Below are positions 10,533 to 61,273 of a stretch of 64,000 nucleotides of DNA, one piece after another. The stretch spans positions 1 to 64,000 of IMG/VR virus record IMGVR_UViG_3300024312_000003. The stretch is one strand, 5' to 3'. The translations under genes and the position numbers were made by a program. The first letter of the stretch is position 1. Each line of letters begins with the position of its first letter. Under the pieces are notes generated by a model. That model did not search any database. It was not told the DNA's origin and saw nothing but the letters and a program-made list of their open reading frames with translations. The stretch is from a virus.

Positions 10533-10562
10533 TATAGGACTGTGAGAAATCACAGTCCTATA
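10533..10562 (-). terminator. intrinsic terminator of NADAR-like gene
   Basis: Stem of 13 perfect pairs (TATAGGACTGTGA with its complement) and a 4-base loop, overlapping the last codons of the gene ending at 10550. On the minus strand it is followed by a long T-rich tract (10508-10532), the classical rho-independent form. Confidence 0.85.
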
Positions 10563-11101
10563 TATCTCATTTTGCATTCATTCCAATAAGACGGAGTCGT
10601 CTTTGTTTTTAAACATTTTCTTATATCTTCCAGTCCTTCTACTAACCAGTCACAATCCTTAACAGGAATGATGTGGTTTTTAGACTCACCAGTTTTCTTA
10701 TCTTGGTATTCGATAACGTAATGATGAGTAAAAGGTAAATCTGATAGACATAGCAATTCTCTCAGCTTTTTATTCTGTAGAATTTTTTGACAATTCGCAT
10801 AAAGGATATCTTCCTTAAAGAAAGGTATCTCGTGCTTTTGAAATGTCTTTCCAAGCTGCTTGGCTTTATAACCGTGCAGCTGTCTAAGATGTTCTATTCC
10901 GTCTTGGATGTGTCCGTACGGGGCTCCGGATTTTAAATAATACCAGAACCCCTCCATAGATTGAAATGGTCCGAAGTAGGGATGCGTGAATGGTGATTTG
11001 TCAAAGTGCGACAACATTCGACCCAACTCAGTCTTTCCCTTACTGTAAACATTAATATGGTTTATACCATCCCTGTCTACAGTTATTTCGGAATCAACCA
11101 T
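10550..11101 (-). CDS. NADAR-like (YbiA/DUF1768-type) putative ADP-ribose hydrolase
   Basis: Start chosen at ATG 11101 because it overlaps the upstream stop (ATGGTTGA), giving a 183-aa protein; longer frames upstream are shadow. The order of motifs fits the NADAR superfamily: LSHFDKSPF (about 30-38, family pattern LSNFxxxPF), FQSMEGFWYYLK (46-57, family pattern SVEHYFQAxK, with E50 as the expected catalytic acid), GYKAKQLGK (78-85), and IXXANCQKILQNKKLRELLCLSD (99-121, family pattern ALxxKFxQNPxLRxxLLxTGD). NADAR enzymes remove ADP-ribose from N-glycosidic adducts, including guanine ADP-ribosylated by DarT2-type toxins, so a counter-defence or NAD-salvage role is plausible. The family call is from motif order only; the role is inference. 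Confidence 0.65.
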   Translation of the reverse strand: MVDSEITVDRDGINHINVYSKGKTELGRMLSHFDKSPFTHPYFGPFQSMEGFWYYLKSGAPYGHIQDGIEHLRQLHGYKAKQLGKTFQKHEIPFFKEDILYANCQKILQNKKLRELLCLSDLPFTHHYVIEYQDKKTGESKNHIIPVKDCDWLVEGLEDIRKCLKTKTTPSYWNECKMRYIGL

Positions 11102-11741
11102 AGTGGACACCAACAGTTGTGCTGGTTGATTCATTAGCCGCCGGGCTGTCGCTGAACGTCTCGACTGGACTAGTCGTTTTATCAATATCAACTTGTTCCA
11201 AGATGATTTGATTAATCTTAGGTTGTTCAACCTCAGGTTTCTGTTCGTTGTTTTCTTTAGTAGAGTAATCCGTGGTAATTGGATTGAGATATTTCTTCTC
11301 AGCCTTTTCAATCTCATCAATGATCGGGAAGGCTTTTGGTTCTTGATATGCTGTATTGACGTCTACCAAGTGAGATACTTCTACAATTTTGTTATTCTCG
11401 AACTGAGCAACGATGATGATGCGGAAGCGTTTTACTTTCAAAAACATCATTGCTTTAACAAAGACTTTCCAAGTCATTGTTTTTCTTAGGAATTCTTTAT
11501 TTAGATTACCGCGTATGCTGGCAATGTCTCTTGGATTGTTTCGATGAATTGCTTCACGTAGAGCATAATCTTTGATATAAGTATACCAAAGCTCATGTCC
11601 CATACCCATTGACAATACTAGCTCTTTGAATAAAGTAGTCAGAACTGTCGGAATGGAGCTAGACTTACCAACACCGCGATCTGGATTATGCAGTAGATCA
11701 CGAAGGGTTTGTTGTTGGAATTTCTTCTTTGCTCGAAACAT
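11094..11741 (-). CDS. hypothetical protein, 215 aa
   Basis: Starts at ATG 11741 with an AGGAAG ribosome-binding site. The N-terminal 120 residues are basic and helical (MFRAKKKFQQQTLRDLL; HNPDRGVGKSSSIPTVLTTL), then a short beta section (FRIIIVAQFENNKIVEVSHL). The last 70 residues are acidic, low-complexity and probably disordered (KENNEQKPEVEQPK). No known family recognised; the GVGKSS stretch is not in a P-loop setting. Its stop overlaps the start of the NADAR-like gene by 8 bases, so the two are translationally coupled. Confidence 0.65.
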   Translation of the reverse strand: MFRAKKKFQQQTLRDLLHNPDRGVGKSSSIPTVLTTLFKELVLSMGMGHELWYTYIKDYALREAIHRNNPRDIASIRGNLNKEFLRKTMTWKVFVKAMMFLKVKRFRIIIVAQFENNKIVEVSHLVDVNTAYQEPKAFPIIDEIEKAEKKYLNPITTDYSTKENNEQKPEVEQPKINQIILEQVDIDKTTSPVETFSDSPAANESTSTTVGVHYG

Positions 11742-11775
11742 TTTAGCTTCCTTAATAAGACGACTAAAGAGTTTA

Positions 11776-12354
11776 TTACTGATTTGTCGAACAATAAACT
11801 ATTCCTCTAACTATGCTTGTTAGAGAAATAATCACTGGAGATAGCGTTCGTAGATTGTGTTCTTCAACTCCATATTCTACATCGTTATAGTTAGCTATAC
11901 ACTCTGTGAAATTTTCAATCGATTTTACAAGTTCCGGTAGTTTACTACTTGGAATATATCTGCCAGAACCATCGATAAATAGTAAATCGAGATATTGATT
12001 TTCTATTTTAACATTATACCTTATTGCATCGTAGGTGGTATATTCAATAATCGAACTTGTTATTGCGTTTAGTTTGCTAATTAGCTCTGTAAAGTTATTT
12101 GAAAAAGTTAGAACCATCAAGATGGATCCTTTCTTAGGATCGTAGTTTTTCAGATCTACACTTGATAGCGATTCTACAGCTTTTACCAAATCTTCTTTCT
12201 TTTGATAATTAGTATATTCGATTGGTGAGCTTTGCGATTCTACATATACACCACTTTCTCTGTAAGGAGTTGGAAGTATAAGATTCGTCACAAAATTGAA
12301 AAATGATTGTTTAAAAATTGCGATCATTTTTGCTAAATTAAAGGTTGTACTCAT
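11776..12354 (-). CDS. hypothetical protein, 192 aa
   Basis: Starts at ATG 12354, first gene of a minus-strand run that begins at the divergent region 12355-12450. The N-terminus has a hydrophobic/aromatic stretch (MIAIFKQSFFNFVTNLILPT) and the rest is alpha/beta with LDLLFIDGSGRYIPSS near the middle. The C-terminus is mildly hydrophobic (LSPVIISLTSIVRGIVY). No catalytic motif recognised; function unknown. Similar small two-domain proteins with no known role are common among phiKZ-like structural genes. Confidence 0.6.
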   Translation of the reverse strand: MSTTFNLAKMIAIFKQSFFNFVTNLILPTPYRESGVYVESQSSPIEYTNYQKKEDLVKAVESLSSVDLKNYDPKKGSILMVLTFSNNFTELISKLNAITSSIIEYTTYDAIRYNVKIENQYLDLLFIDGSGRYIPSSKLPELVKSIENFTECIANYNDVEYGVEEHNLRTLSPVIISLTSIVRGIVYCSTNQ

Positions 12355-12450
12355 GTTTTATACATTTAATGTGAATGTCGATCATGTGCTACATACTACA
12401 TGAGTGATATGTAACTATATACTTTTGTATTATAAGAATTGGAAAAAATC
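12355..12450. promoter_or_regulatory. divergent promoter region
   Basis: A 96-base AT-rich spacer between divergent starts at 12354 and 12451. It contains TATG-type sequences (ATATGTAAC) and a TATATAC/TATTATAA stretch near the plus-strand gene. TATG-like cores are reported for phiKZ late promoters, but such a short motif is frequent by chance here, so this is only an expected promoter location. Confidence 0.3.
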
Positions 12451-12927
12451 ATGTCTGTTAATAACGAAATCGCCAATATGGAAGTATTAGACGATGATCA
12501 AGCGCTAGCTTTTACACAGAAAGCTAGAAGAAAGATTGTTAGTAAAATATTGGAAAAGGGAGAAATCCCTGAAGATAAAGGAGAACAAATAATGTTACTT
12601 CAAGCTCTAGACGGAATGGATAGAGCTGCTCTAGGTAATAAGAGAATTAAAGCGGATGAGAAGGCCAGCGATGCTCTTGGTGATTCGTCTGCTCTCATAG
12701 CGCAAATGCTCACTCAAATGGCAGGTAATGTTAAACTTGCTAAGTCTGAAGATATAGTTGATGTGGAAGCAAAAGACATAACTGCTCCTGCTTTACCAGA
12801 TACAATACCTGATCCGATACTGGTGCCTGGAGAAACAACCATAGGCGCTCCACAATTAGATTATGATTCATTCATGAACAGCATGAACGGTAGAGAAATT
12901 CCACAACTCACCGATGACGATCAATAA
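12451..12927 (+). CDS. hypothetical acidic protein, 158 aa
   Basis: Start chosen at ATG 12451 (MSVNNEIANM), preceded by GGAAAAA; an in-frame TTG at 12439 is less likely. Residues 20-60 contain a basic helical block (QKARRKIVSKILEKGEIPED) followed by LLQALDGMDRAALGNKRIK. The C-terminal half is acidic, proline-rich and probably disordered. The block 'LQALDGMDxxALGxKRI' recalls small proteins in other jumbo phages that I cannot assign. A small-terminase or assembly role is possible but unsupported. A single-gene plus-strand unit. Confidence 0.6.
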   Translation: MSVNNEIANMEVLDDDQALAFTQKARRKIVSKILEKGEIPEDKGEQIMLLQALDGMDRAALGNKRIKADEKASDALGDSSALIAQMLTQMAGNVKLAKSEDIVDVEAKDITAPALPDTIPDPILVPGETTIGAPQLDYDSFMNSMNGREIPQLTDDDQ

Positions 12928-12928
12928 G

Positions 12929-12958
12929 GCATAAAGAGGGGAATTCCCCTCTTTATGC
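12929..12958. terminator. bidirectional terminator palindrome, copy 2
   Basis: A perfect 30-bp palindrome with half-site GCATAAAGAGGGGAA between the convergent stops at 12927 and 12953. The minus-strand TAA lies inside its right arm. Confidence 0.85.
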
Positions 12959-13684
12959 TGTTGCTTTTTTAAAAGCATTCAACATCTTTTTACTTATGCT
13001 GAATACGGAGGTGTCTATTATTTTTAGACCAATTAATGGAGCGATGCTAAGCTCCATTGTTTTAAATGGATTCAGGTTATCCCTTTTGAATTCAGCTATT
13101 TTTTCTTCGCTTGGCTCGCAATCATAATAGAGAGATGGAGCTATAAAAATGACCGCAGGGATCGGCTTTGATACAAGATTATTTTGTTGAATATGCAGCC
13201 AGTCTGCAAAGTCATACTTAATGATCATGCAATAATTTTTCTTTATGAATTCTGGAGTTAAATCATCATTACTCATGCTGATTAATTCAACATCAGAACA
13301 ACCGTGATTTAATTGAAATATGACATCTCGCATTTCTTCAATTTCGTCAGGTTCTAATTCATAAGGAAATATATTCACAGTCAATGGATGACCTAGATTC
13401 TGACCACCTTTCATGTTTTCAATCACAGCTTCTTTTACAGTGGTGTGAATGATTTCAAATGTTTCAGTTATTAAACTAAAGGGAAGAATGTCTGCTGTTC
13501 TCTTTGAATAAAGTTCTTTAAATTCAGAAGCACTTATTCCTGGGAATTTATCGATGAATCTTTTATGATAATCAGAGTTAAGAACATCGACCGCTTTATC
13601 AGCGTCTAAACTTGCGAGCAAACCCATTCTTGTATCTAAAAGACTATCTAGGTCTATGTAGATTTTTGTGTTTTGCTCACTCAT
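12953..13684 (-). CDS. hypothetical protein, 243 aa
   Basis: Starts at ATG 13684 (MSEQNTKIYI). An alpha/beta protein with an early IYIDLDSLLDTRMG segment that looks superficially like a HAD or nuclease acidic strand, then KGGQNLGHPLTVNIFPYEL and a hydrophobic strand PAVIFIAPSL. The C-terminus is amphipathic and basic (FSISKKMLNAFKKATA). It heads a tight run with the next two genes (spacings of 1 and 10 bases). The DLDSLLDTR motif alone is too weak to name an enzyme. Function unknown. Confidence 0.6.
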   Translation of the reverse strand: MSEQNTKIYIDLDSLLDTRMGLLASLDADKAVDVLNSDYHKRFIDKFPGISASEFKELYSKRTADILPFSLITETFEIIHTTVKEAVIENMKGGQNLGHPLTVNIFPYELEPDEIEEMRDVIFQLNHGCSDVELISMSNDDLTPEFIKKNYCMIIKYDFADWLHIQQNNLVSKPIPAVIFIAPSLYYDCEPSEEKIAEFKRDNLNPFKTMELSIAPLIGLKIIDTSVFSISKKMLNAFKKATA

Positions 13685-13685
13685 G

Positions 13686-14150
13686 TTATTTCTTTTCCAT
13701 GCTTTCCAATATATCTTTGTAAAAGATAATCAGGAGAACAAAAGTAACCAGCCATTTATTTCTTTTAAGAGCATCTTCAACTTCTCTCTGGCTTGGTAGT
13801 CTGTCGTTTATTTCTTTAGGAATGAGAGACTGCGTTTGCTCTTCCTCAGAAACAGTCATTGAATGACAGAGAATATCAATCATTGCATCTTGATCAAAAT
13901 TACCACTGTTGAACAATGTCTGAAATCTAATGGTGGTGTTAAGAATGTAATCTCTATTAACCGCAGCGCTGAACACAGAATCAACAGTTGTACGAAGACC
14001 GATTGCGCTTGGGATCAGATAAAGATTTAAACCACAAGCACTGTTTAAAAGAAAGGCTTGTACTTTATTTCTCACATCACCAATGTAAGTTTCAATGGTT
14101 GATTTGTGTGCTGAAACAATGCAGTCTCTTAGAAAATCATTAAGTTCCAT
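13686..14150 (-). CDS. hypothetical protein with C-terminal membrane segment, 154 aa
   Basis: Starts at ATG 14150. Mostly helical. Residues about 129-145 are hydrophobic (WLVTFVLLIIFYKDIL) and end in a charged tail (ESMEKK), which suggests tail-anchoring in the inner membrane. The stop lies one base upstream of the next gene's ATG, so they are co-transcribed and probably translationally coupled. No family recognised; a structural or lysis-associated role cannot be distinguished. Confidence 0.6.
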   Translation of the reverse strand: MELNDFLRDCIVSAHKSTIETYIGDVRNKVQAFLLNSACGLNLYLIPSAIGLRTTVDSVFSAAVNRDYILNTTIRFQTLFNSGNFDQDAMIDILCHSMTVSEEEQTQSLIPKEINDRLPSQREVEDALKRNKWLVTFVLLIIFYKDILESMEKK

Positions 14151-14160
14151 TATTGTTTCC

Positions 14161-14847
14161 TTAATTATTAAGTAGTGTGTTTCTTAAATGCATTGCTGTA
14201 AGATACGAACTAAGTGTAGTGGTAGCTTTGACTTTGGTGCCCAGTTTATCCAAATAACTCAAACTAACACCGCCGGTTTTATTGATAGAGTCATTCATCG
14301 CATTAAAACCATTCAAATCACCACCGCGATACTTTATCAATTCAGTGATTGTGTCGTCTAGTTGCAATGCTGCTAGAATCTGAAGTTCTGGATAGGATAT
14401 CTTACTTCCTTTAGACGAACCTGTGGGTTGACCAGTCATGTGATCAATTGAACGATTATCTTCTGGAATACTGATCTTTTTAATCAGGAGCTGTGCTTGT
14501 CTACGAAGCGGTAGATCTACTACTAAATATTTTTTAGTAGTTAGGAATCTACCATTGCCTTTAGGATCTTCCATCCATATCTTCTCAAAGAACTCATGGC
14601 CTAGTTCCTCAGCAATTTTCAAATTGTTATCTATTGAGATTTTTTTATCTGATAGATTAGGAACAATTATGGCTAATCTACTTTTGCCAGTAGCAATATC
14701 TTGCATCAATTGATCGAAGGCAATATCGTCAAGAGACTCAAATAGATTTTTATAAATCTTTGTATTTTCACTACCTGGTAGTAATTTTTCAATATGGTCG
14801 ATTATGAACTTTTCGACTATTTTTCTATTGGACATATTCATCACCAT
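14161..14847 (-). CDS. hypothetical protein, 228 aa
   Basis: ATG codons at 14847, 14841 and 14835 are all in frame near the start; GGTGATG lies between them, so the true start may be 14835 (MSNRKIVEKF). The protein is mostly helical with a short beta section (SRLAIIVPNL), a basic stretch (LPLRRQAQLLIKKI), a Gly/Ser-rich linker (MTGQPTGSSKGSKI) and a C-terminal helical domain. The pattern of a 'KSRLAIIVPNLSDKKI' strand and later helices is not one I can assign. It belongs to the 12.9-15 kb minus-strand run. Confidence 0.6.
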   Translation of the reverse strand: MVMNMSNRKIVEKFIIDHIEKLLPGSENTKIYKNLFESLDDIAFDQLMQDIATGKSRLAIIVPNLSDKKISIDNNLKIAEELGHEFFEKIWMEDPKGNGRFLTTKKYLVVDLPLRRQAQLLIKKISIPEDNRSIDHMTGQPTGSSKGSKISYPELQILAALQLDDTITELIKYRGGDLNGFNAMNDSINKTGGVSLSYLDKLGTKVKATTTLSSYLTAMHLRNTLLNN

Positions 14848-14872
14848 TGATTTTAAGACATAACATTAACAT

Positions 14873-15304
14873 TCATGTCTTTGGAATGAATAGATAGTTT
14901 TTAACGTTTCTTTTCTTTAGCTCACTTAACATGTGTTGTGTACCTGGACTTACACCATCCCAAATAAGAAATGCTAAATTGACAACTTTAGACATCTCTG
15001 TATTTCTTATACTTCCGGCTGATTTACCATAGTAATCCCAAAAAGCCCGATAGTAGAAACAAGGTAAATTGTGTTTCTTACAAAACTCAATTATTAAAGT
15101 ATCTACTCCCGGTGCTTTTCCAGACACAAAACAAAAATCTCGACCTTTTAGATATCTCAAAACACCCAACATCTTCTTCTCGAAGTAATCCCAATCATTA
15201 TAGGATCTACTACCAGCAACAAGAACTCGATATTGAAAACTATCTATTAATCGGTCTTCTATGTTAACGCCTTCTCGTTTTCTTTCTGGCGGCGGCCCTT
15301 GCAT
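14873..15304 (-). CDS. SLOG-fold protein, YspA/DUF2493-like, about 144 aa
   Basis: The domain runs from RVLVAGSRSYNDW through FVSGKAPGVDTLIIEFCKKH to FLIWDGVSPGTQHMLSELKK. The GSR, SGxAxGVD and G(T/S)xxM motifs are those of SLOG-superfamily nucleotide- or ligand-binding proteins such as YspA and DprA. The in-frame ATG at 15304 is taken as start; it overlaps the upstream gene by about 40 bases, and an ATG at 15337 is an alternative. The longer reading to 15421 has no ribosome-binding site and adds unrelated sequence. SLOG proteins are proposed to bind nucleotide-derived signals, sometimes in conflict systems. Here it sits among unknown small genes; function is not established. Confidence 0.75.
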   Translation of the reverse strand: MQGPPPERKREGVNIEDRLIDSFQYRVLVAGSRSYNDWDYFEKKMLGVLRYLKGRDFCFVSGKAPGVDTLIIEFCKKHNLPCFYYRAFWDYYGKSAGSIRNTEMSKVVNLAFLIWDGVSPGTQHMLSELKKRNVKNYLFIPKT

Positions 15305-15503
15305 TCTGTTTGTGTGATGATTTTGCTTTGCGTGCATACTTACTAGGCTTATCTTCAAAGTCACCAGACTGACAAGGAGATTCAGGATCCGGCAAATCTT
15401 CAATTTCCAAGTCGGATTCATCCTGTTTAATGTGTGATTGTGCTTGTCCTGTATTCATAGCTACCGCAGCCATTGTTGCTAGTCTTAGAAGTTCAGATCG
15501 CAT
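15264..15503 (-). CDS. small basic/acidic protein, 79 aa
   Basis: Starts at ATG 15503 with AAGTAAA upstream. The middle is acidic (QDESDLEIEDLPDPESP) and the C-terminal 25 residues are very basic (KYARKAKSSHKQNARAAARKKTRRR). A strong nucleic-acid-binding tail in a disordered small protein suggests DNA or RNA contact. It overlaps the SLOG gene, so the two are probably co-expressed. No family recognised. Confidence 0.55.
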   Translation of the reverse strand: MRSELLRLATMAAVAMNTGQAQSHIKQDESDLEIEDLPDPESPCQSGDFEDKPSKYARKAKSSHKQNARAAARKKTRRR

Positions 15504-15532
15504 TTTACTTGTGATCGGTTAAAAGTATGTAA

Positions 15533-15563
15533 AATAAAAGAGGGGAATTCCCCCTCTTTTATT
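15533..15563 (-). terminator. terminator palindrome, variant copy
   Basis: Stem of 13 perfect pairs (AATAAAAGAGGGG with its complement) and loop AATTC, between two minus-strand genes. It keeps the GAGGGGAATTCCCC core of the family but has AATAAAA instead of GCATAAA at its outer edge. It terminates the gene ending at 15562, whose stop codon lies in the hairpin. Confidence 0.8.
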
Positions 15564-15879
15564 ACGTCTTGAATTTAGGCAAATCAAATTCAACAATACT
15601 AGGAATGACGCTTTCTTTCAAAAGCTTCTCCCATGTACGGTTATCGCCACCATCCACAATACAAAACCTCTCAAAGGGAGCGGCTTTTGGAGCATCCGCT
15701 AGTGTCAGTCTGAGCGCTCTATTTACAAGAAAACGCTTATGACCACTCTCGACATTATGGACATTTGGATCTAGAAGCTTTTGCCATCTTTTTGGTTCAG
15801 AGTGACCAGCTTCAGCCATTAGCTTGTCAACGACGGCTATTGGATCTATTGATTCTTCTACGTTTGATAATTCATTCAT
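15562..15879 (-). CDS. hypothetical protein, 105 aa
   Basis: Starts at ATG 15879, directly after the stop of the RecA-like gene (TAAaATG), so the two are translationally coupled. It has an acidic helical N-terminus and a C-terminal segment with ERFCIVDGGDNRTWEKLL. It could be an accessory protein to the ATPase by position alone. No domain recognised. Confidence 0.6.
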   Translation of the reverse strand: MNELSNVEESIDPIAVVDKLMAEAGHSEPKRWQKLLDPNVHNVESGHKRFLVNRALRLTLADAPKAAPFERFCIVDGGDNRTWEKLLKESVIPSIVEFDLPKFKT

Positions 15880-15880
15880 T

Positions 15881-17359
15881 TTATTCGACGATTACTACGC
15901 CAGTTGTTTCTGTTGAAATTTGTCCTACAGTCAATGGTTTGATTGTAGGTGATTTAATTTTTGATCTTTGTTCTTCGGTGAACCAATATGGAATATATTG
16001 ACCAACACGCATTTTAAGAAGATCCATGGTACTCAAAAACGGAGTGTTGTTAGTACCTTCAAGAGCCCACCAACCTCTAGTGTTGAGAAGAATCTTCCAA
16101 TCATAACCTAGAGCTATCAGATCATCGTAGAGTTGCTTAGGTGTGCACATCAGTTCTTCAGGAATATGGTGCCATAGATCATTAATCTGACACATTTCTG
16201 AAGTGATGTTCAGAGCCCTTCGCAATTCTGGGTGAGCATCAATTTTTCGACGAACAGTTGTTCTAGACAGCTTGATATCTGGCAAAAGAGATAGGTAATA
16301 GTTTTGAAGAGTACCTTCAATGCCGTACCTGTCTGTTGACTTGATATAGTGAAACTCAGTCAAGCTTGGAAGTACCCCGTCTTGCTGTGAAACAATTAGT
16401 TTCATAGCCATGCCCGAAGGACCAGACTTACTTCTGAGTTGACGAATTGTCACTTCGTTTAGATCTGTGTCACCTTTGAGATCGTCGTCAGAATCTCGAG
16501 GATATTCTGGCGCTTTGGTGGTATCGTTACGAAGAGGAGCAGCGTTATAGCAAAGCCAACAATTGTTCATCACAAAAGTGAACTTTTCCGGAACACCTTT
16601 GAGCTTAACACCTTGAGGAATGTGTTGTAGTTTCTTAGGAGCAGGTGCTCTAGGATCCATATTGAACTCAGACCCGATGTGTGCAGTCATCAGTGTGTAT
16701 GAGTATGTACCGCCAGATAGCGCAGGGATCTCCATCAAGAATCGATTCTTTTGAAGACCTTGACGCATTGATACTGTGTTAGCACCAGATTCACCAAGAC
16801 TGTTTTCGTCCTGCATCTTAATGACGTCTTGAGTGACGAATTCACTAAGTGAATCGATCTCAGAGAAAGACGGCATTGTAATTTCTAGATTACCGGTCTT
16901 TTCACGATTCCAAAAAGGAGTCTTAACGGTGTACTTAACCGCGTTCTTCTTTTTGTCATTCATGAATTCTTTTAGAATATCAAAGTATTGATCACCTTGA
17001 TAAACTGTCTTATCAGTAATGGTCCACCGACCTGATTCCAGAATATCTTCACCACCGAATTCTTCAATATTGGCAATCATCCTCTTGAGATGCCATTCAT
17101 GGATGTTAATCTCGGTGTCGTAGGTATTACCCATTGATCCAACGATTCTCGACATGGCGGTAAACGACATGTAGTGCATTACGGTGGATTTAAAGTTATT
17201 ACCAATACCAACCACACCAGTTAGAAAACCAAGACCACCATTGAGAATACTCTCCCCGTGTCGTCCAGTCACATATGTACCTGTCGGAATATCGAGACAG
17301 GCGCCTACGTTAATCATCACCTTTATTGGTGGGGCTGCTTTAAAAGGATTAATTAGCAT
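15881..17359 (-). CDS. RecA/UvsX-like ATPase, 492 aa
   Basis: Start ATG 17359 has a strong AAGAGGAAAG ribosome-binding site. A Walker A-type loop GVVGIGNNFKST lies at residues 48-59 (K57, S58), followed by a helix (VMHYMSFTAMSRI) and YDTEINIHEWHLKRM at about 79-93, where RecA/UvsX proteins carry a strand and a conserved acidic residue (YDSEFG in T4 UvsX). A later section QLRSKSGPSGMAMKLIVSQQ may be a DNA-facing loop. T4 UvsX has 391 residues, so this protein is longer. It is first in a minus-strand unit with a 105-aa coupled gene. A DnaB-type helicase role is an alternative, because the window also carries a separate DnaB-like gene with the same NFK(S/T) loop; recombinase is preferred but not certain. 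Confidence 0.6.
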   Translation of the reverse strand: MLINPFKAAPPIKVMINVGACLDIPTGTYVTGRHGESILNGGLGFLTGVVGIGNNFKSTVMHYMSFTAMSRIVGSMGNTYDTEINIHEWHLKRMIANIEEFGGEDILESGRWTITDKTVYQGDQYFDILKEFMNDKKKNAVKYTVKTPFWNREKTGNLEITMPSFSEIDSLSEFVTQDVIKMQDENSLGESGANTVSMRQGLQKNRFLMEIPALSGGTYSYTLMTAHIGSEFNMDPRAPAPKKLQHIPQGVKLKGVPEKFTFVMNNCWLCYNAAPLRNDTTKAPEYPRDSDDDLKGDTDLNEVTIRQLRSKSGPSGMAMKLIVSQQDGVLPSLTEFHYIKSTDRYGIEGTLQNYYLSLLPDIKLSRTTVRRKIDAHPELRRALNITSEMCQINDLWHHIPEELMCTPKQLYDDLIALGYDWKILLNTRGWWALEGTNNTPFLSTMDLLKMRVGQYIPYWFTEEQRSKIKSPTIKPLTVGQISTETTGVVIVE

Positions 17360-17466
17360 TCTTTCCTCTTTATGAGTAAAGTGAGTGTTCGTATCAATAT
17401 ATAGAAATATCTAGTAATTTTGTGACATATCTACTCTACACCTATCGCTTAGAATAGGAACATCAC
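17360..17466. promoter_or_regulatory. divergent promoter region
   Basis: A 107-base spacer between divergent starts at 17359 and 17467. It holds ribosome-binding sites for both genes (AAGAGGAAAG on the minus strand, ATAGGAA on the plus strand) and a central AT-rich stretch (AATATATAGAAATATCTAG) where promoters would be expected. No conserved motif confirmed. Confidence 0.3.
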
Positions 17467-18315
17467 ATGAAACACATATCCGTTAATATTCAAAAGACTG
17501 CTCAAGAAGAGCTTTTTACTGCTTGCAATAAGATTGCTTTAGAGTCCTATACCGAAGGTATAGGTATGGAATTTTTTACTGAGAACTTTCAGATAGTAGC
17601 GACAAACATTGAAAAGGTGTTTGACAACAGCTTCGATTTGATAAAAAACTTGTCAGTAACTAAGTTTCTTAAAAACTATACATTTGAATCACAAGTAAGT
17701 AAGATAAATTACGCAGCTATTGATCAGATAAAAATCACAATACCTGAAGGATTTACTGGCAATGCTAAAGAGTATTGTCAAGAATTAATAAAACAAGTAA
17801 GTCACGTATCCACTATCACAACCCAGGTAATACTGCCTTTTAATCAATACATCAGCTCTCTTATATCTGATAAGGATTTTGCAAAGGCATATAAGTCTAA
17901 ACCAGTGTACCTGCATGACAGAGATGCCAAAAGAGAAGAGATGAATAAAACCATTTCTAAGTATTTTGGACACGGTACTCTGTCTTCTGGTAAATTGTCA
18001 CAGCACTATCATTCAGGTGTCGAAGTTGCTGAAACAGACATACTGGTTGGTGAACTCAGCGATTCATTAGGCACTACCGACGTTGTTTCTATTCGTAAGA
18101 TGGTTACTGATTCTGTGGATCTAATTAACGCACTTCAAGATCTTGTATCTAAGAATCAAATAACAAATCTATCTGATTCACAGAAGAGACTTCTTGCTGA
18201 AATGTGCACAACGATTGCTAGGGAAATTGAATTCTATGCAATAACTAGATATCGTGCTGATTCCTTCATCAATACTTTTGCAAAAACAAAAGAAGCTGTA
18301 AAGAAGATTCTTTAA
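17467..18315 (+). CDS. hypothetical protein, 282 aa
   Basis: Starts at ATG 17467 with ribosome-binding site ATAGGAA. Almost entirely helical (EELFTACNKIALESY; DSVDLINALQDLVSKN; AEMCTTIAREIEFYAITRY), without membrane segments or catalytic motifs. The composition resembles internal head or scaffold-like phage proteins, but nothing specific shows this. A single-gene transcription unit ended by the hairpin at 18322. Confidence 0.6.
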   Translation: MKHISVNIQKTAQEELFTACNKIALESYTEGIGMEFFTENFQIVATNIEKVFDNSFDLIKNLSVTKFLKNYTFESQVSKINYAAIDQIKITIPEGFTGNAKEYCQELIKQVSHVSTITTQVILPFNQYISSLISDKDFAKAYKSKPVYLHDRDAKREEMNKTISKYFGHGTLSSGKLSQHYHSGVEVAETDILVGELSDSLGTTDVVSIRKMVTDSVDLINALQDLVSKNQITNLSDSQKRLLAEMCTTIAREIEFYAITRYRADSFINTFAKTKEAVKKIL

Positions 18316-18321
18316 GGACAT

Positions 18322-18356
18322 AAATCCCATTTCGCCTTTTGAGCGAAATGGGATTT
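18322..18356. terminator. bidirectional terminator hairpin, distinct stem
   Basis: Stem of 14 perfect pairs (AAATCCCATTTCGC) with a 7-base loop, between convergent genes ending at 18315 and 18365. The stem is unlike the repeated family but it is still followed by TTATGC. Confidence 0.8.
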
Positions 18357-18364
18357 TATGCAGT

Positions 18365-18757
18365 TCATGCAAAAATTGTTTTATTTGACAGCAACTTCTG
18401 AATGTCTTCAAGCATTTGCTCGTAAGTAGAATACTTGAGACAATTCGGAACAATATCAACAAGACTTTTGGCCAGCGTTTGTTCACAACCTTTCCCATCA
18501 ATACCGCAGATGATGTTTTCAGCGCCTTTGTTTCGCCAAATCACCTTACTAATGTGCACTGGGAACATGATGGCATTATCATCACTGCTCAATTCCATCA
18601 GTTCATTTAATTTCTTTATGGATTCCCTACGGAGTACTTCGTGGTTGACCACCATTCCGTATATTGAAGCCAAAAGAATAAGTCTTTTAGTACGATCGGG
18701 TAAATATGTTTTTAATTTTTCCGATGCCGCATTTTTAAATCTTTCGGTTAGATTCAT
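18365..18757 (-). CDS. hypothetical protein, 130 aa
   Basis: Start chosen at ATG 18757 (MNLTERFKNA), which has a GGAAAG ribosome-binding site; an ATG at 18805 is in the same frame but less well placed. Helical and basic N-terminus (ASEKLKTYLPDRTKRLILL), a central segment with HISKVIWRNKGAENIICGIDGKGCEQ, and a helical C-terminus. It follows the RNase H fusion gene by 56 bases. No known domain recognised. Confidence 0.55.
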   Translation of the reverse strand: MNLTERFKNAASEKLKTYLPDRTKRLILLASIYGMVVNHEVLRRESIKKLNELMELSSDDNAIMFPVHISKVIWRNKGAENIICGIDGKGCEQTLAKSLVDIVPNCLKYSTYEQMLEDIQKLLSNKTIFA

Positions 18758-18813
18758 TTTTCTTTCCGGGATCCTGATTTTTGGCGGAAACAAGATCCCG
18801 CCCAAAAAGATTG

Positions 18814-20346: not shown

Positions 20347-20393
20347 GCAAATCTCTTAATAAGTTTAATCACAATAATTACAGAGTTAGTAAA

Positions 20394-22545: not shown

Positions 22546-22559
22546 TTTAGGAGCAATTA

Positions 22560-23555: not shown

Positions 23556-23556
23556 G

Positions 23557-51431: not shown

Positions 51432-51432
51432 A

Positions 51433-51909: not shown

Positions 51910-51943
51910 TGTTGATCCTATGAAATAAATAGGAGAATCTTCC

Positions 51944-52684: not shown

Positions 52685-52717
52685 GGCATAAAGAGGGGAT
52701 TTCCCCTCTTTATGCCC
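52684..52717. terminator. bidirectional terminator palindrome, copy 6
   Basis: 16-bp arms (GGGCATAAAGAGGGGA) with a TT centre, so one base differs from the other copies, between convergent stops at 52684 and 52718. The stop codon TAG of the plus-strand gene runs into its left arm. Confidence 0.85.
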
Positions 52718-55294: not shown

Positions 55295-55396
55295 TTTATT
55301 CTCCGAGAATTGAGAGCTAGTACGTTTTAGTACTACAATCTTCCCTGGTGTGTATTTAATTACAAACTTATGATATTGCCTAGCTCATACAGTACG

Positions 55397-55433
55397 GCAT
55401 AAAAACGAAAGGATTAACCTTTCGTTTTTATGC
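55397..55433 (-). terminator. hairpin terminator, GCATAAAA-type
   Basis: Stem of 16 perfect pairs (GCATAAAAACGAAAGG with its complement), loop ATTAA. It keeps the GGCATAAA edge but has an AT-richer stem. It ends transcripts from the gene ending at 55456, just upstream of the tailspike unit. Confidence 0.8.
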
Positions 55434-55455
55434 ATTTAACGTGATGTGTTAAATA

Positions 55456-56058
55456 TTAATTCCAAGTTAGAAATTGAATATACTCGCCAACAGCATGATC
55501 TTTTACTTGGTTTAGAAGAATACTTAAATCCATTCCTTGTTTAAGATATTCGCCTTCTTTGGTATACAATTTATAAGCTGTAAAACTTGGATAAATGTAT
55601 ATCTTTAATAAATAAGCTACCTCACCATATATTTCCAAAGTTCTATTAAATATATTGAGCCTGGATATGTCCGGTTGATTGGTGAACTTTACAGATACCG
55701 ATTTATCGTAGAAAATCTTAAATAGGATTTTAAGATAATTATTGATGACTGAATTAGAAATCAATTCATGATAAACTTCAGTTCTACCTGTTACTTCGTT
55801 GGTTCTGTATGGATATGTGTATCTTTGATTTGTAAGTATGATCGCTAGTATTTTTGCAATCGTGCTTGGAACCCTAACACTATTCCAGTAAAAGTTATCA
55901 TAATGTTTTCTATTAATCGGAGTTTCATTAAATAGCATATTGTAATTCTCATGTATGCTAATTATATCAACACTAAACTTTTGTTTAATTTCTTCAGAGT
56001 GTAATAGTAGAAATGTATTTTCTGAAGTTTTTAAAATACTTGACAGTGTACCATCCAT
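55456..56058 (-). CDS. hypothetical protein, 200 aa
   Basis: Start ATG 56058. Tyr/Asn/Ile-rich (SIHENYNMLFNETPINRKHY; IAKILAIILTNQRYTYPY), mostly alpha/beta. No membrane segment or motif recognised. It is isolated by hairpins on both sides (55397 and 56099), so it is a single-gene unit. Confidence 0.55.
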   Translation of the reverse strand: MDGTLSSILKTSENTFLLLHSEEIKQKFSVDIISIHENYNMLFNETPINRKHYDNFYWNSVRVPSTIAKILAIILTNQRYTYPYRTNEVTGRTEVYHELISNSVINNYLKILFKIFYDKSVSVKFTNQPDISRLNIFNRTLEIYGEVAYLLKIYIYPSFTAYKLYTKEGEYLKQGMDLSILLNQVKDHAVGEYIQFLTWN

Positions 56059-56098
56059 GATTTTACCTTTTTAAGCAAAAAAAAAATAACATAGAGCT

Positions 56099-56130
56099 TT
56101 TAGAGAGTAGGCATTAGCCTACTCTCTAAA
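56099..56130 (-). terminator. hairpin terminator
   Basis: Perfect stem with TTTAGAGAGTAGGC-type arms and loop ATTA, just after the stop at 56134 on the minus strand. A run of nine As lies left of it (56073-56086), giving a minus-strand U tract. Confidence 0.8.
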
Positions 56131-56133
56131 GTA

Positions 56134-56736
56134 TCAAGGACGTGAATTTGCTTGGAACTCACGCAACTCAGCTGTACGAACATCTTCCAAATACTGATGA
56201 TACTTGGAGATGAAGCCGCGACTCACCAGTTTGCCGTACAAAACATCGTGCCCGTGATATTCGTGATTTTTGGTGCCGGTACTTTCATTTGGATTGTAAT
56301 CCATGTCATTACCGGCATGCCGCATGATCAGGCTCCAAATTTGCTCACCAGTCAGTTGTTCAGCCAATCGCATGCGTTGCATGGTGAAAGGGTAAACGGG
56401 TGCCATACACAAAACCTCAGTGTCGGTGAGGTAATTGTAGATCACCGGGGTCGGAATTTCAGCTCGTGATACCATTTCGTATCGAACAACAAAACCAACG
56501 ACTGGACTGGAATTGTTATTACCAAAAGCAATAACTGGCCGCCCAATCATCATCTCCATCTCAATGTTTTGATGACGAATTTTATTTTCTTCCGCCGCTT
56601 TCTCAATTTGTAGAGCTTTCCTGGTCATGATTGAATTGCTCAATCGAGCCATCTTCTTCGGGAAGAAAGCATACAGCATTTCAATCAGCAGTCCGTTTTG
56701 ACCACTGGCTTCTTTGATGATTTGTTCATTTGTCAT
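56134..56736 (-). CDS. hypothetical protein, 200 aa
   Basis: Start ATG 56736 with ribosome-binding site AAGGAAA. The N-terminal 60 residues are helical and basic; the middle has RPVIAFGNNNSSPVVGFVVRYEMVSR and PTPVIYNYLTDTEVLCMAPVYPF, and the C-terminus is helical and ends in a basic tail. No family recognised. It is the last gene of the minus-strand early-type block, ended by the hairpin at 56099. Confidence 0.6.
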   Translation of the reverse strand: MTNEQIIKEASGQNGLLIEMLYAFFPKKMARLSNSIMTRKALQIEKAAEENKIRHQNIEMEMMIGRPVIAFGNNNSSPVVGFVVRYEMVSRAEIPTPVIYNYLTDTEVLCMAPVYPFTMQRMRLAEQLTGEQIWSLIMRHAGNDMDYNPNESTGTKNHEYHGHDVLYGKLVSRGFISKYHQYLEDVRTAELREFQANSRP

Positions 56737-56784
56737 GTTGTTTCCTTGTGTATTCTTAAGATTGTGCTTGCTTGTAAAAAACTA

Positions 56785-57066
56785 TCAGTGAAGAATTATT
56801 TTTGGGGGAGCTTTCCGATTGTGGAAAACCTGCATAGAGCCGTCTGAAAATACCAACACTGCAGTCGGACTGGTCATTGTATTCAAGATATTGGTAAATT
56901 GCTCTTTATATTCCCATTTCAAAATCTTGACAAAATCACAATTAATAGCGTTTCCAGAGACCATGTGTTCGACGTATTGTTCCTCAGTCAAATCACACTT
57001 GTAAATCGCGACGTCGTCTGGACGGTTGAACGTTGGTTCTTTATCAACAGTGATGGTAATTGCCAT
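56785..57066 (-). CDS. hypothetical protein, 93 aa
   Basis: Start ATG 57066. Small, mixed alpha/beta (MAITITVDKEPTFNRPDDVA; TNILNTMTSPTAVLVFSDGS), soluble. Two bases separate it from the next gene. No motif recognised. Confidence 0.6.
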   Translation of the reverse strand: MAITITVDKEPTFNRPDDVAIYKCDLTEEQYVEHMVSGNAINCDFVKILKWEYKEQFTNILNTMTSPTAVLVFSDGSMQVFHNRKAPPKIILH

Positions 57067-57068
57067 AC

Positions 57069-57329
57069 TTAACTCACTAAATGCTGAATGTTGATTATTT
57101 CGTAATTATTCTTCTGGCATTGAAAGTTCTTCAATTCAATACCTTTTAGCGACTCAATTGTCTTTTGCGCTATTTCAATTGTGGTGAAGAATACTCCTTC
57201 AATTGTGGAGCCAATATCAGATTTACTCACCTTTCTAAAACAAGCTTCTGTCTTGTTATTAGAATTCATGATTAAACCAGCATAGACGAGGAATTCATCC
57301 TCGTCTTTTATGCCGATAAAATAAATCAT
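57069..57329 (-). CDS. hypothetical protein, 86 aa
   Basis: Start ATG 57329, overlapping the previous stop (57326) by 4 bases. Contains IGSTIEGVFFTTIEIAQKTI, an alpha/beta small protein with one cysteine pair. Co-translated with its neighbours in a run of tiny genes. No family recognised. Confidence 0.6.
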   Translation of the reverse strand: MIYFIGIKDEDEFLVYAGLIMNSNNKTEACFRKVSKSDIGSTIEGVFFTTIEIAQKTIESLKGIELKNFQCQKNNYEIINIQHLVS

Positions 57330-57592
57330 AGATGGTATTTAGGGTGAGCCAGCGCTCGTCCGACCCAAATCTCATCGGCTTCACCAACGCCGACTCCCAG
57401 ACCTTTGGATTCACCAAATACCTGGACACCTTCGGCGGTTTGCGTGAAATAACCAGCCCCAGTAATTGTTCCAGGAATGAAACAGTGTTTGATTGCATCG
57501 TGAGGAACCACTTCTGGAATCAAAATGGCACCATCAACGATGACTGTGCCTGCGATGATTTCGCCAGTCACGTATTTTCCTTTTTCGTACAT
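57326..57592 (-). CDS. hypothetical protein, 88 aa
   Basis: Start chosen at ATG 57592 (MYEKGKYVTG) with the strong ribosome-binding site AAGGAGA; a longer frame to 57724 has none. Gly/Val-rich beta strands (TGEIIAGTVIVDGAILIPEV; AGYFTQTAEGVQVFGESKGL) suggest a compact beta-fold, reminiscent of left-handed beta-helix or small-barrel proteins. Unknown function. Confidence 0.6.
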   Translation of the reverse strand: MYEKGKYVTGEIIAGTVIVDGAILIPEVVPHDAIKHCFIPGTITGAGYFTQTAEGVQVFGESKGLGVGVGEADEIWVGRALAHPKYHL

Positions 57593-57593
57593 T

Positions 57594-58121
57594 TTATTCT
57601 CCTTGATAAACAATGAATGATTGATTTTTTGCTTTGGAGATTTCTTTCCAAAGCATTTCAGGAACAGTGATGTCGTTGAAAGCAGGAATGAATGAAGGCA
57701 TGAAACCGCTTGACTTGTTAACAAGGGTCGACTTCAGAATCCACCTCTTAGAAGAATCAACTCCAGGCATTTGAGAAGGATACCACCAATCCATGATTGA
57801 CGGATTGATATTACTCTCATCAATGAACTTTTGCCGTATGACTCCAAATGAAATCATATCCTGACATGACTTGATCATCATCTCAAACAACATCTCTTGC
57901 ATGCTGTCTTTCTGAATTTTCAACCATCCGTTGAAAACAAAGTAAACGCTTGCTTTGAGGTTATCGAACAAAAGCTCATCCAAAGGCTTGTTGTCAAGTT
58001 CCTTTTGTGCGTTGATTTCAATCTCACATTTCAACAGTGAGACCCCAACTTTATTCATGACTTCGTTACCAAGCATTTTTTCAAATGCATTGTCGAAGTT
58101 CTCGCAAGTGTAAATGCTCAT
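57594..58121 (-). CDS. hypothetical protein, 175 aa
   Basis: Start chosen at ATG 58121 (MSIYTCENFD), which overlaps the stop of the Cys-cluster gene as ATGA, so translation is coupled. Mostly helical, Met-rich (KDSMQEMLFEMMIKSCQDMI), with a conserved-looking end, PAFNDITVPEMLWKEISKAK. A partner role to the upstream Cys-cluster protein is possible. No domain recognised. Confidence 0.6.
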   Translation of the reverse strand: MSIYTCENFDNAFEKMLGNEVMNKVGVSLLKCEIEINAQKELDNKPLDELLFDNLKASVYFVFNGWLKIQKDSMQEMLFEMMIKSCQDMISFGVIRQKFIDESNINPSIMDWWYPSQMPGVDSSKRWILKSTLVNKSSGFMPSFIPAFNDITVPEMLWKEISKAKNQSFIVYQGE

Positions 58122-58636
58122 TTGATTTTCATTGCGTGAATATCCCAACGATGATCGTAGAGGTCGTTGAGAAATTGTTGATGTGGCAACCAAGCTTCGT
58201 ACAACTTCTCATCCAAATTCACATTCGGATCATAATGACACTTACCGCCTTCGACAGGGATGAGTTGTTGACAGACATATGGACGTTCATCGAAACGCAA
58301 TGAACACCCAGTTTCTGTCAAATTGACACATTGACCAAAGTTATCCCCTCTGGATGTTTTGGTGCTCCATTGCTTACTGATTGATGTCGTCGGTTGCAAA
58401 ACCAAAAACGAGTAATCGGGAGCTACGAGAGTATCGCTATCAGGGTAGATATCGATCTGATTGATGACAACCAAACCATCATCCATCATCTTATCGATGA
58501 TTTCAAACTGATTAGTTTGCCCTTTGAGAATTTGGTTTGGCATGAATGAGCCGGGACTGCTCTTGCAGCACTGACCTCCGCAAGGTGTGCAGATGTCTTT
58601 GTTCTCGTTTTGAATTGGAATGACTTTTTGATTCAT
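58118..58636 (-). CDS. YkgJ-like zinc/iron-chelating Cys-cluster protein, 172 aa
   Basis: Start ATG 58636, ribosome-binding site AAGG. An N-terminal CTPCGGQCCKSSPGSFMP cluster (C16, C19, C23, C24) and a second group, CVNLTETGCSLRFDERPYVCQ and GKC, match the YkgJ/CxxCxxxCC family (PF03692), which binds Zn or Fe-S. In bacteria and phages it accompanies modification or redox proteins, but its function is undetermined. It is translationally coupled to the next gene by ATGA, and a longer gene overlaps its first 125 bases. Confidence 0.75.
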   Translation of the reverse strand: MNQKVIPIQNENKDICTPCGGQCCKSSPGSFMPNQILKGQTNQFEIIDKMMDDGLVVINQIDIYPDSDTLVAPDYSFLVLQPTTSISKQWSTKTSRGDNFGQCVNLTETGCSLRFDERPYVCQQLIPVEGGKCHYDPNVNLDEKLYEAWLPHQQFLNDLYDHRWDIHAMKIK

Positions 58637-58895
58637 GACTTGGACCTTTTCGCCTTACACTAGCGTACTTTTTCCATTCTCCAGAATACATCATTTTTTC
58701 ACACAGACCCTTAGCGGCTGAGAGCTTATGCCTCGGCATGTAAGTGGTTTGGTCTGTTATGATTTCTAGTTGGTTGACTAGATAGATGTTGTATCCTTTA
58801 TTTTGTTTGTAGTTTGGATCGATTAGGAACATCCACTCCTTATCCAGGAGCAGATATTCCCAGCCATACTTATCGACTTGCCAATAACCAAACAT
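58512..58895 (-). CDS. hypothetical protein, 127 aa, overlapping start of Cys-cluster gene
   Basis: Start ATG 58895, two bases after the stop of the helix-turn-helix gene. Residues 1-85 look like a normal globular protein (YWQVDKYGWEYLLLDKEWMF; IYLVNQLEIITDQTTYM); residues 86-127 overlap the Cys-cluster gene for 125 bases and are basic, Ser/His-rich low-complexity sequence that may simply be read-through without a function. The overlap is longer than usual for this genome. Confidence 0.55.
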   Translation of the reverse strand: MFGYWQVDKYGWEYLLLDKEWMFLIDPNYKQNKGYNIYLVNQLEIITDQTTYMPRHKLSAAKGLCEKMMYSGEWKKYASVRRKGPSHESKSHSNSKREQRHLHTLRRSVLQEQSRLIHAKPNSQRAN

Positions 58896-58897
58896 TT

Positions 58898-59533
58898 TTA
58901 TTTTGTCTTAACTTTTGCAATAGAAGTATAGACACCTTCTTTAGCCTTTTGCATCTCTGGATTTTCCAGAGATTTCTCATAGTAGTGTTTGTTTACCAAC
59001 CAAATGGACTCACCTGTTGGGAATTTCACTTTTCGCAACATAGTAAGTTTATGACGATATTTACAGTCATATTGGTAATATTGCTCCAACAAGACACTAC
59101 CATCGTCAAATACTTCAGATTCACCATTCAGACGAGTACGCCAATGTCCTGAATTTGTTTTTTGTTCGATATTGAACAAAGCCAATTCTTCAGAAATAGG
59201 AATGAATTGAAGTACAATGGTGAAACCAAATCTGTTGATGTGTTCCAAATCATAATCTGGACGAATTTTCAGAAGTTCCAAATTCAAGGCAATCATTTCT
59301 TGATAGATGTCTCGAACCCTGGACGTTGAAATGCTGTATTGTTCAGCCAAGTCTTTGACTTTTGCATTGTGATTATAGATTTTATCCATGATCACTTTGT
59401 TTCTTGCAGGAATTCGATTGATCTTTTCGAACAATCGGATATAGGCTTCATGTTGCCAAATTTGTCTGTTGTGGTAATCGATTTCCTCAACAGCTGCGGA
59501 ATTAGTGTTAACAAATCGGACAGAGTTAGTCAT
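58898..59533 (-). CDS. putative helix-turn-helix regulator, 211 aa
   Basis: Start ATG 59533. Residues about 46-80 (KVIMDKIYNHNAKVKDLAEQ, then YSISTSRVRDIYQEMIAL) form a sigma-region-4-like helix-turn-helix: a helix, a turn, and a recognition helix with SRVRDIY. The C-terminal part is alpha/beta (FTIVLQFIPISEELALF). It could regulate phage or host transcription. It is placed directly downstream of the DHH gene (2 bases). Confidence 0.6.
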   Translation of the reverse strand: MTNSVRFVNTNSAAVEEIDYHNRQIWQHEAYIRLFEKINRIPARNKVIMDKIYNHNAKVKDLAEQYSISTSRVRDIYQEMIALNLELLKIRPDYDLEHINRFGFTIVLQFIPISEELALFNIEQKTNSGHWRTRLNGESEVFDDGSVLLEQYYQYDCKYRHKLTMLRKVKFPTGESIWLVNKHYYEKSLENPEMQKAKEGVYTSIAKVKTK

Positions 59534-59535
59534 GA

Positions 59536-60393
59536 TTATTTCTTTCTGTACTTTTCAATAGGTTGAGCATTTGCATAAATGTCTTTTAGGATGGCTGCGC
59601 CTTCATCAATTCTAACAGACATTCCGCTGGCAAATTTATGACCACCACCGTTAATAGTTTTATGTTTAACGGCGTGATTAGAAACATCAAAGCTGTTGCT
59701 TCTAAGAGAAAAGACCATATGTCCTTCGCTTGTTACGAAGTACATGGCTGCGAAATCAATCGCGTAATCCGTGTATAGTTTCTCTCCGACTTCAGAGAAA
59801 AGTCCAGTCACGTTAACAACCGCACACAAAGCACCATCCCATTCGCCAACTACTGCTTTTGAAACAAACGAATCGACTACCGCAGATTCGTATTTCATCA
59901 AGTAAGGCGCTTCTGTCAATAGTTCACTGGTATCGTGAAGATGTTTCTCATATTCGCGAAAATCTTTAATTCCTTTTAGAACTGAAGTTACTTTTCTAGT
60001 ATCTTCAATTTTGAATTTCCACAAATCTCGATCCTGAATGATTTTTATCAGCTCAGGCGGTTGTTGGTCTTTGTGAAAATATTCCCAAGCCAACATGGCT
60101 CCAGATTTATCCATGTCGAATTGTGCAAAAGGTAACCCGCTTAGCTGATCCATTGCTGTTTTATGATGATCCAAAACAATCAAAGAATTCGATCGATCAT
60201 TTAGAGAAATCAGAGTTTCTTTTGGATATGAAAAATCCAGAATGAAAATGTTTGACCCAGACTCGATTTCCGGCAATGGTTTGTTGTAATTGACAGGAAT
60301 ATAAATTGCATTTTCCCTGAATTTCAGAAACGCAGCCAAAGCCGCTCCGCTACCATCGGTACAGTTTTCATGGAACAAGACGATATTTTTCAT
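59536..60393 (-). CDS. DHH-family phosphoesterase (NrnA/oligoribonuclease-like), 285 aa
   Basis: Start ATG 60393 with ribosome-binding site AAAGGA. Motifs in order: H8 and D13 in FHENCTDGSG, D53 in ILDFSYP, DHH motif D75-H76-H77 in VLDHHK, D near 122 in QDRDLWKF, and the DHHA1 motif GGGHKFASG near 247-256. This is the complete set for an Mn-dependent DHH phosphoesterase of the NrnA/pAp-phosphatase/GdpP group, which cleaves short RNA, pAp or cyclic dinucleotides. It is adjacent to an ADP-ribosyltransferase-like gene. Its likely role is salvage of short RNAs, or removal of a nucleotide signal; the substrate is unknown. Confidence 0.85.
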   Translation of the reverse strand: MKNIVLFHENCTDGSGAALAAFLKFRENAIYIPVNYNKPLPEIESGSNIFILDFSYPKETLISLNDRSNSLIVLDHHKTAMDQLSGLPFAQFDMDKSGAMLAWEYFHKDQQPPELIKIIQDRDLWKFKIEDTRKVTSVLKGIKDFREYEKHLHDTSELLTEAPYLMKYESAVVDSFVSKAVVGEWDGALCAVVNVTGLFSEVGEKLYTDYAIDFAAMYFVTSEGHMVFSLRSNSFDVSNHAVKHKTINGGGHKFASGMSVRIDEGAAILKDIYANAQPIEKYRKK

Positions 60394-60406
60394 GATTTAG
60401 TTTCCT

Positions 60407-61273
60407 TTACTTATAACGTTTGACTTTGTGATCGTTAACGAAATCTTCATCCCAAACACAGAAAGCGCGATGCCGAATGTTGCTATTGGTAATCATACCG
60501 CCAGGATACTCCAGTCCACGATAACCGTATTCTTCCAACATCACGCGAATGCGTTGATAATTGAGTTTTCGATAAGGGAAGTGATGATGCTTCACCACTC
60601 GAAGGAAATCATCAAATTTCTCAATTTGAATAACTTTACGACGTTCATCGTGTACCCAGCTTCGAACCACAGACCCTGTTACTGGATCGCGTCGAGCCAC
60701 CAGTCTCGAATTTTCACGAATGGTGACTTCAATCTTGTCAGCAACACACCCCCAATCAAAGAACATTTTCAAATATTCTTCAGGAGTGGTACGGTCGAGC
60801 ATCAACATCGAGTCGTTGAACAATCTTTCAGGGAAATTGAATTCGCTGATGTACCCGACTTGTTTGGGTTTCTCTTTGTGATACGTGTAGTTGCAAGAAA
60901 GTGGTTGAGCTTTATCGAACAATGTGGATCGATCGATCTTAACCTCAATGAAACCTTCCTCAATCTTGTCAAGGAATTGATAGTGATCGAAGCTGGTAGC
61001 TTCTTCAATCTTTTTCTTCAAAACTTCAGTCACGTATCGACCGTACGCGATTTCTTGAGCGTGTTGTTTGGTTGCAGCTCTTCCTTGAAACAAGACCACT
61101 TTGGAGTCACGAGAATATCGCTCATAGTGACCTTTGGTACGATAAGTTTCAGCCACATTCTTCTTGGTGGTCAGATAAATACCTTGACCAACCAAACAAC
61201 GTTTGTTTGTTTTGTTGAAGTCGAATTCTTTGATTTTTTCAGCGTCACCGCGATAGAGTGTGATCGTGCTCAT
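60407..61273 (-). CDS. ADP-ribosyltransferase-fold protein (ART-PolyVal-like), 288 aa
   Basis: Start ATG 61273. Residues 6-10 (LYRGD), 29-45 (GQGIYLTTKKNVAETYR) and 248-278 (YGYRGLEYPGG, RHRAFCVWDEDF) follow the ART layout of (R/H)-(Y/S)-E: R8 in the first strand, the GIYLTT turn with Y33 in the second, and the final GYxGxE (E255) followed by the FCVWDxDxV end typical of ART-PolyVal proteins. A long insert (about 60-245) carries the rest. ARTs use NAD to modify proteins, RNA or DNA. The first bases overlap the kinase-like gene by 29 bases, and the DHH gene follows, which suggests a nucleotide-handling cluster. Activity and target are inference. Confidence 0.65.
   Translation of the reverse strand: MSTITLYRGDAEKIKEFDFNKTNKRCLVGQGIYLTTKKNVAETYRTKGHYERYSRDSKVVLFQGRAATKQHAQEIAYGRYVTEVLKKKIEEATSFDHYQFLDKIEEGFIEVKIDRSTLFDKAQPLSCNYTYHKEKPKQVGYISEFNFPERLFNDSMLMLDRTTPEEYLKMFFDWGCVADKIEVTIRENSRLVARRDPVTGSVVRSWVHDERRKVIQIEKFDDFLRVVKHHHFPYRKLNYQRIRVMLEEYGYRGLEYPGGMITNSNIRHRAFCVWDEDFVNDHKVKRYK

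Follow-up and report, generated by a model that had tools for sequence, protein, structure and literature searches.

A gp30.3-related NADAR protein and a separate ADP-ribosyltransferase-like protein encoded in a jumbo phage genome fragment

When a phage genome encodes both a protein resembling enzymes that remove ADP-ribose and a protein resembling enzymes that attach it, do the two work together? This question is raised by a 64,000-nucleotide stretch of DNA (positions 1 to 64,000 of the IMG/VR virus record IMGVR_UViG_3300024312_000003; here called the window), which carries genes for a NADAR-like protein (positions 10550 to 11101; 183 amino acids) and an ADP-ribosyltransferase (ART)-like protein (positions 60407 to 61273; 288 amino acids). 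The record holding the window is an incomplete viral fragment of 180,490 bases, and the part beyond the window was examined in stretches, for selected families only. Matches to phage families were obtained for the major head, virion, polymerase, and helicase proteins of the window; the head protein shares 47% identity with that of Burkholderia phage FLC9 and is more distant from those of other jumbo phages. On our own reading of the list of head protein matches, the window is probably part of a phiKZ-like jumbo phage. We conclude, with a probability of roughly 0.8, that the two genes are separate NAD/ADP-ribose genes (i.e., one for a stand-alone gp30.3-related NADAR and one for an accessory ART-like protein) and that they form no functional couple.

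The positions and the distribution of the two genes carry this conclusion. Both lie on the minus strand, with 49 kb between them, in unrelated gene clusters. Relatives of the window ART-like protein were found in none of 48 other NADAR-bearing records and not in the 60.9-kb record G001, and a recognizable ART-PolyVal domain was present in only 2 of the 35 NADAR-bearing records tested for it. The NADAR gene retains its synteny in related jumbo phages without this ART; the genes around it are conserved in order in record G002, and phage FLC9 has a matching gene layout. The neighboring genes (positions 8766 to 12354) include no ART, and no darT toxin gene adjoins the NADAR gene as in DarTG1. Conversely, a DHH phosphoesterase like that encoded next to the ART-like gene is present in several relatives, and a search around it for other proteins of the ART cluster gave no match in the three stretches examined. 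More than 48% of medium and jumbo phages have been reported to encode a NADAR, and more than 40% of jumbo phages an ART (PMC9503650); therefore, both should commonly occur in one genome by chance. Xanthomonas phage XaC1 is such a genome, with a NADAR 47% identical to that of the window (174031 to 174525) and a clear ART-PolyVal domain protein (298002 to 298481), approximately 124 kb apart. Neither an ADP-ribosylglycohydrolase gene nor a Nudix gene was found in the record, nor was any credible Macro gene. A Macro match at positions 64763 to 64888 (E = 0.007) was rejected as weak, the sequence in its frame being unlike that of a macrodomain, and candidate ART paralogues in the rest of the genome proved to be marginal phmmer matches to open reading frames (ORFs) lacking ART motifs. 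As to G001 (IMGVR_UViG_3300024282_000001; 60,913 bases), it is a near-identical relative with a 100% identical NADAR, and its fragment ends short of the ART region.

To our knowledge, known ART-NADAR pairs are encoded by adjacent genes, which counts against the functional pairing that the original prediction had put forward. In one form of such a pair, the phage ART would mark a nucleic acid or protein of the host, and the NADAR would erase that mark or shield phage DNA from a side activity of the ART. The presence of both genes in one genome and on the same strand fits this idea, as do the two genes of XaC1 and a myxobacterial precedent in which a YbiA-type NADAR is the antitoxin to the ART toxin YarT (PMC11125620). 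However, the window genes are distant from each other, as are those of XaC1; the NADAR is kept without the window ART in the other records, and few carriers have any recognized ART-PolyVal domain. We therefore abandon the pairing, which is very unlikely. A variant that acts at a distance is extremely improbable: an R-Y ART, divergent and with a C-terminal part found nowhere else, would ADP-ribosylate guanine-containing host nucleic acid, while the NADAR would keep phage DNA or RNA clean. If true, it would amount to a marking of self versus nonself during infection. In the reading that we prefer, the NADAR and ART-like genes would have been inherited separately.

The identity of the NADAR protein was assessed at the levels of family, fold, and residues. 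The gene, on the minus strand, starts with an ATG at position 11101, and its first 8 bases are shared with the end of the upstream gene. An alternative TTG start at position 11320 was rejected; it would overlap the upstream gene (11094 to 11741), and the relatives begin near a DG-x-x-H-I-N block. In a profile search, the protein belongs to phrog_652 (E = 2.9e-39), a family whose function is listed as unknown, and relatives of it occur in 570 phage records. No Pfam or NCBIfam model, including PF08719, matched the window protein. In an alignment of 60 sequences, taken from the window and viral contigs, 11 relatives matched the Pfam NADAR model at an E value of ≤1 (best E, 9e-4) and 4 of the 60 matched Phage_30_3, and the missing PF08719 match is a sensitivity limit of a single profile and not a structural criterion. 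When the phrog_652 family profile was compared with the PDB, the first match was 8BAU (NADAR; E = 0.0055) and the second was 2B3W (YbiA; E = 0.2).

The AlphaFold2 model of the protein is of high confidence (predicted local distance difference test [pLDDT] score, 95.6; predicted template modeling [pTM] score, 0.90). In a Foldseek search of the PDB, its top three matches were solved NADARs (i.e., 2B3W, 8BAU, and 8BAT, with probabilities of 1.00, 1.00, and 0.97), and the probability drops to 0.04 at the fourth match; among viral models (BFVD), the matches were phage proteins and annotated giant-virus NADARs. Judged from this model, the NADAR fold of the protein is established as far as computation can establish it, and the NADAR-like assignment made from the sequence at the outset is borne out by the family match and the Foldseek ranking alike. 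The second BFVD match was annotated as a DprA-like protein of Erwinia phage RAY. Two relatives carry a fused C-terminal SLOG/DprA-like domain with an IAGSRT motif (L049, positions 2995 to 3843; L099, positions 2995 to 3768), and in the viral contig IMGVR_UViG_3300028840_003061 (L058, positions 2992 to 5880) a NADAR relative and a PolA-type DNA polymerase, the latter recognized by eye, are fused in one ORF of 963 codons.

Seven positions (N17, G27, G44, F46, E50, A80, and P123) are invariant across the 60-sequence alignment. Among them is the candidate catalytic Glu, E50 (10952 to 10954, minus strand), which had been proposed from the sequence; it was found where it had been placed and is E in 60/60 relatives, with no replacement among them. 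In a profile comparison, E50 aligned with the Glu of the "LEGF" motif of T4 gp30.3 and of the "SEHYF" motif of YbiA (control, 0.5%). Phage NADARs carry a His where other NADARs carry Glu or Asp (PMC11543638, PMC11125620). The candidate for this phage-type residue, replacing the Glu or Asp of the last strand, is H126 (10724 to 10726, minus strand), which is H in 52 of the 60 relatives and sits directly before a strand predicted in the AlphaFold2 model (residues 127 to 133); the third catalytic position of the window NADAR is thus probably a His.

Among known proteins, the closest in kind are other members of phrog_652 (e.g., FLC9 gp45, the XaC1 protein, and Klebsiella phage KpLz-2_45), which are about 36 to 50% identical to the window NADAR and share its invariant residues; some of them have fused SLOG/DprA-like or DNA polymerase domains, whereas the window NADAR is a single-domain protein. 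T4 gp30.3 (Pfam Phage_30_3, in the NADAR superfamily) is likewise a stand-alone phage NADAR, with an aligned catalytic Glu and a Lys seven residues after it, and its match to the phrog_652 family reached an hhalign probability of 90%. Direct identity to it is low, however, and the window NADAR differs in its phrog_652 profile and in an extra N-terminal block ("DG.HIN.YSKGKT.LG"). The DarT1-associated NADAR antitoxin of the BC4488 subfamily and Escherichia coli YbiA have the same fold and catalytic Glu; unlike the window NADAR, with its probable His, no DarT neighbor, and no evident N-terminal DNA-binding extension of the DarT1 type, they have Asp or Glu at the third catalytic position.

Several observations weigh against our reading. 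Some of the evidence that relatives lack the ART comes from incomplete contigs and depends on how sensitive the searches were, and the record that holds the window is itself incomplete. We found no measured activity in the literature for any phrog_652 member. Finally, K57 (10931 to 10933, minus strand), which has the same spacing from the Glu (E+7) as the published catalytic Lys of the E. coli C7 NADAR (E88/K95; PMC11543638), is conserved as K in only some 40% of the relatives (24/60, with R in 9/60); therefore, catalysis may differ from that of the characterized NADARs.

What might this NADAR act on? NADARs strip guanine bases of ADP-ribose (PMC11543638). T4 gp30.3 takes guanine-linked ADP-ribose off DNA in vitro and leaves thymidine-linked ADP-ribose untouched (PMC11125620); guanosine-linked ADP-ribose on RNA is also a substrate, used less efficiently than by the C7 NADAR (PMC11833690). 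By analogy with the biochemistry of T4 gp30.3, the 10550-to-11101 protein is most likely an ADP-ribosyl N-glycosidic hydrolase. It would hydrolyze the N-glycosidic bond of ADP-ribose conjugates using E50 and H126, and the natural conjugate may be a guanine-ADP-ribose, on DNA or RNA, or else a soluble derivative of ADP-ribose that host defense produces.

Authors of surveys have favored the latter, with phage NADARs mainly degrading soluble ADP-ribose derivatives (PMC9503650, PMC7824862). Under this explanation, which we hold to be possible at somewhat less than even odds, the NADAR would degrade molecules, such as cyclic ADP-ribose variants, that are produced by NAD-based host defenses. The relatives fused to SLOG/DprA-like domains, together with the DprA-like protein among the BFVD matches, agree with the view of the survey authors. 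Against it, we found no report of the cleavage of such molecules by a phage NADAR, and the only phage NADAR activity for which we found a measurement in the literature concerns guanine-ADP-ribose.

DarTG is an antiphage system. The NADAR could therefore serve as a shield, stripping off ADP-ribose that host DarT1-type toxins attach to guanines of phage DNA; we consider this role unlikely. The activity of T4 gp30.3 on DNA and RNA in vitro (PMC11125620, PMC11833690) and the conservation of E50 and H126 speak for it. However, T4 gp30.3 failed to protect cells against DarT1 toxicity (PMC11125620), and the thymidine adducts made by DarT2 are not among its substrates. Two phage genes relevant to DarTG, adfA of RB69 and adfB of ICP1, do not encode NADARs: no enzymatic activity is predicted for AdfB, which probably acts by binding DarT, and AdfA has been hypothesized to be alike in this (PMC11481870). 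Moreover, the DNA of a nucleus-forming phage may be shielded anyway. An assay for the removal of DarT2-type adducts, as originally suggested for the window NADAR, is misdirected because NADARs, including that of T4, act on guanine-ADP-ribose and not on thymidine-ADP-ribose (PMC11125620).

The ART-like protein (minus strand) is recognizable in its N-terminal part alone. Residues 4 to 65 match DUF3990 (E = 2.7e-4) and residues 4 to 58 match ART-PolyVal (E = 5.6e-3), with scores under the curated Pfam cutoffs (21.1 versus 32.2 bits for DUF3990 and 17.9 versus 31.2 bits for ART-PolyVal); the protein also matches phrog_31411 (E = 1.5e-4). The gene has a codon usage-based coding score of 0.185, and an antisense ORF on the plus strand (60428 to 61339) was ruled out as the true gene by its score of -0.029. 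Against an alignment of three ART-PolyVal relatives, hhalign gave a probability of 92%, confined to residues 4 to 49, and two neighboring window proteins used as controls gave 2.0% and 0.2%. This motif region (61127 to 61264, minus strand; LYRG ... GQGIYLTTKKNVAETY) includes R8 and Y33. The closest sequence is an ART-PolyVal protein of Brevibacillus phage Jenst (42% identity over 49 residues), which itself scores above the ART-PolyVal cutoff. No full-length homologue was found in viral contigs, GTDB genomes, plasmids, or phages; the partial relatives in these collections were limited to Brevibacillus phages Jenst and SecTim467 and to weak N-terminal matches, and nothing matched the remaining approximately 220 C-terminal residues. 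An AlphaFold2 model from the single sequence was uninformative (pLDDT, 34.9; pTM, 0.25), and a PDB search with the ART-PolyVal alignment gave weak matches only, including PARP4 (E = 0.16). Of the ART fold that had been claimed for this protein, the N-terminal similarity stands, and the rest of the chain and the fold model lend it nothing.

The likeness to ART-PolyVal (PF18760) and DUF3990 (PF13151) proteins (e.g., Jenst gp175) extends over the N-terminal 46 to 60 residues and the pattern Y-[HR]-G ... G-x-G-[IF]-Y-[LF]-T, with [HR] at the first beta strand and G-x-G-x-Y at the second both present in the window protein. In contrast to these families, the window protein has R8 in place of the H of its relatives at motif 1, a long insertion, and a C-terminal part that is not confidently alignable; Y33 is kept. 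The catalytic triad first proposed (R8, Y33, and E255) lies at the stated positions, and R8 and Y33 fall in the motif. E255 (60509 to 60511, minus strand), which falls in a "GYRGLEY" strand at a position occupied by V, I, or Q in relatives, is unsupported as a catalytic residue: the Glu that is invariant in the three relatives occupies another column, on the next strand, where the window protein has no acidic residue.

A degenerate or noncatalytic relative of ARTs (e.g., a decoy or binding protein) is an explanation to which we give appreciable weight, short of an even chance. It would account for the change from H to R at motif 1, the missing acid, and the 220 C-terminal amino acids that resemble nothing else. 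On the other side, Y33 and the Y-R-G...G-x-G-I-Y-L-T frame are retained, and R-S-E-type ARTs have R at motif 1. In the XaC1 ART-PolyVal protein, too, no Glu stands directly ahead of the last strand; therefore, inactivity of the window protein cannot be concluded, and the Glu column may be misaligned. We take the N-terminal resemblance to ARTs as shown and an ART activity as conjectural; if active, the protein would modify a host molecule.

The ART-like gene adjoins a gene for a DHH/DHHA1 phosphoesterase (59536 to 60393; phrog_4771, E = 1.4e-68), possibly a nanoRNA or cyclic-nucleotide phosphodiesterase. At its other end, its start is overlapped by 29 bases by the 3' end of a gene for a short P-loop kinase-like protein ("HATGKTTLSR"; phrog_4182; 61245 to 61661).

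Both proteins belong to known kinds, i.e., a phage NADAR of a widespread family and a separate, divergent ART-like accessory protein. The apparent pair of attachment and removal functions is a coincidence of the sort expected in large phages, and recognizing it as such spares a misdirected DarT2 experiment. Structure places phrog_652, with its 570 phage records and no listed function, in the NADAR superfamily, and the family can thereby be tested for ADP-ribosyl hydrolase activity.

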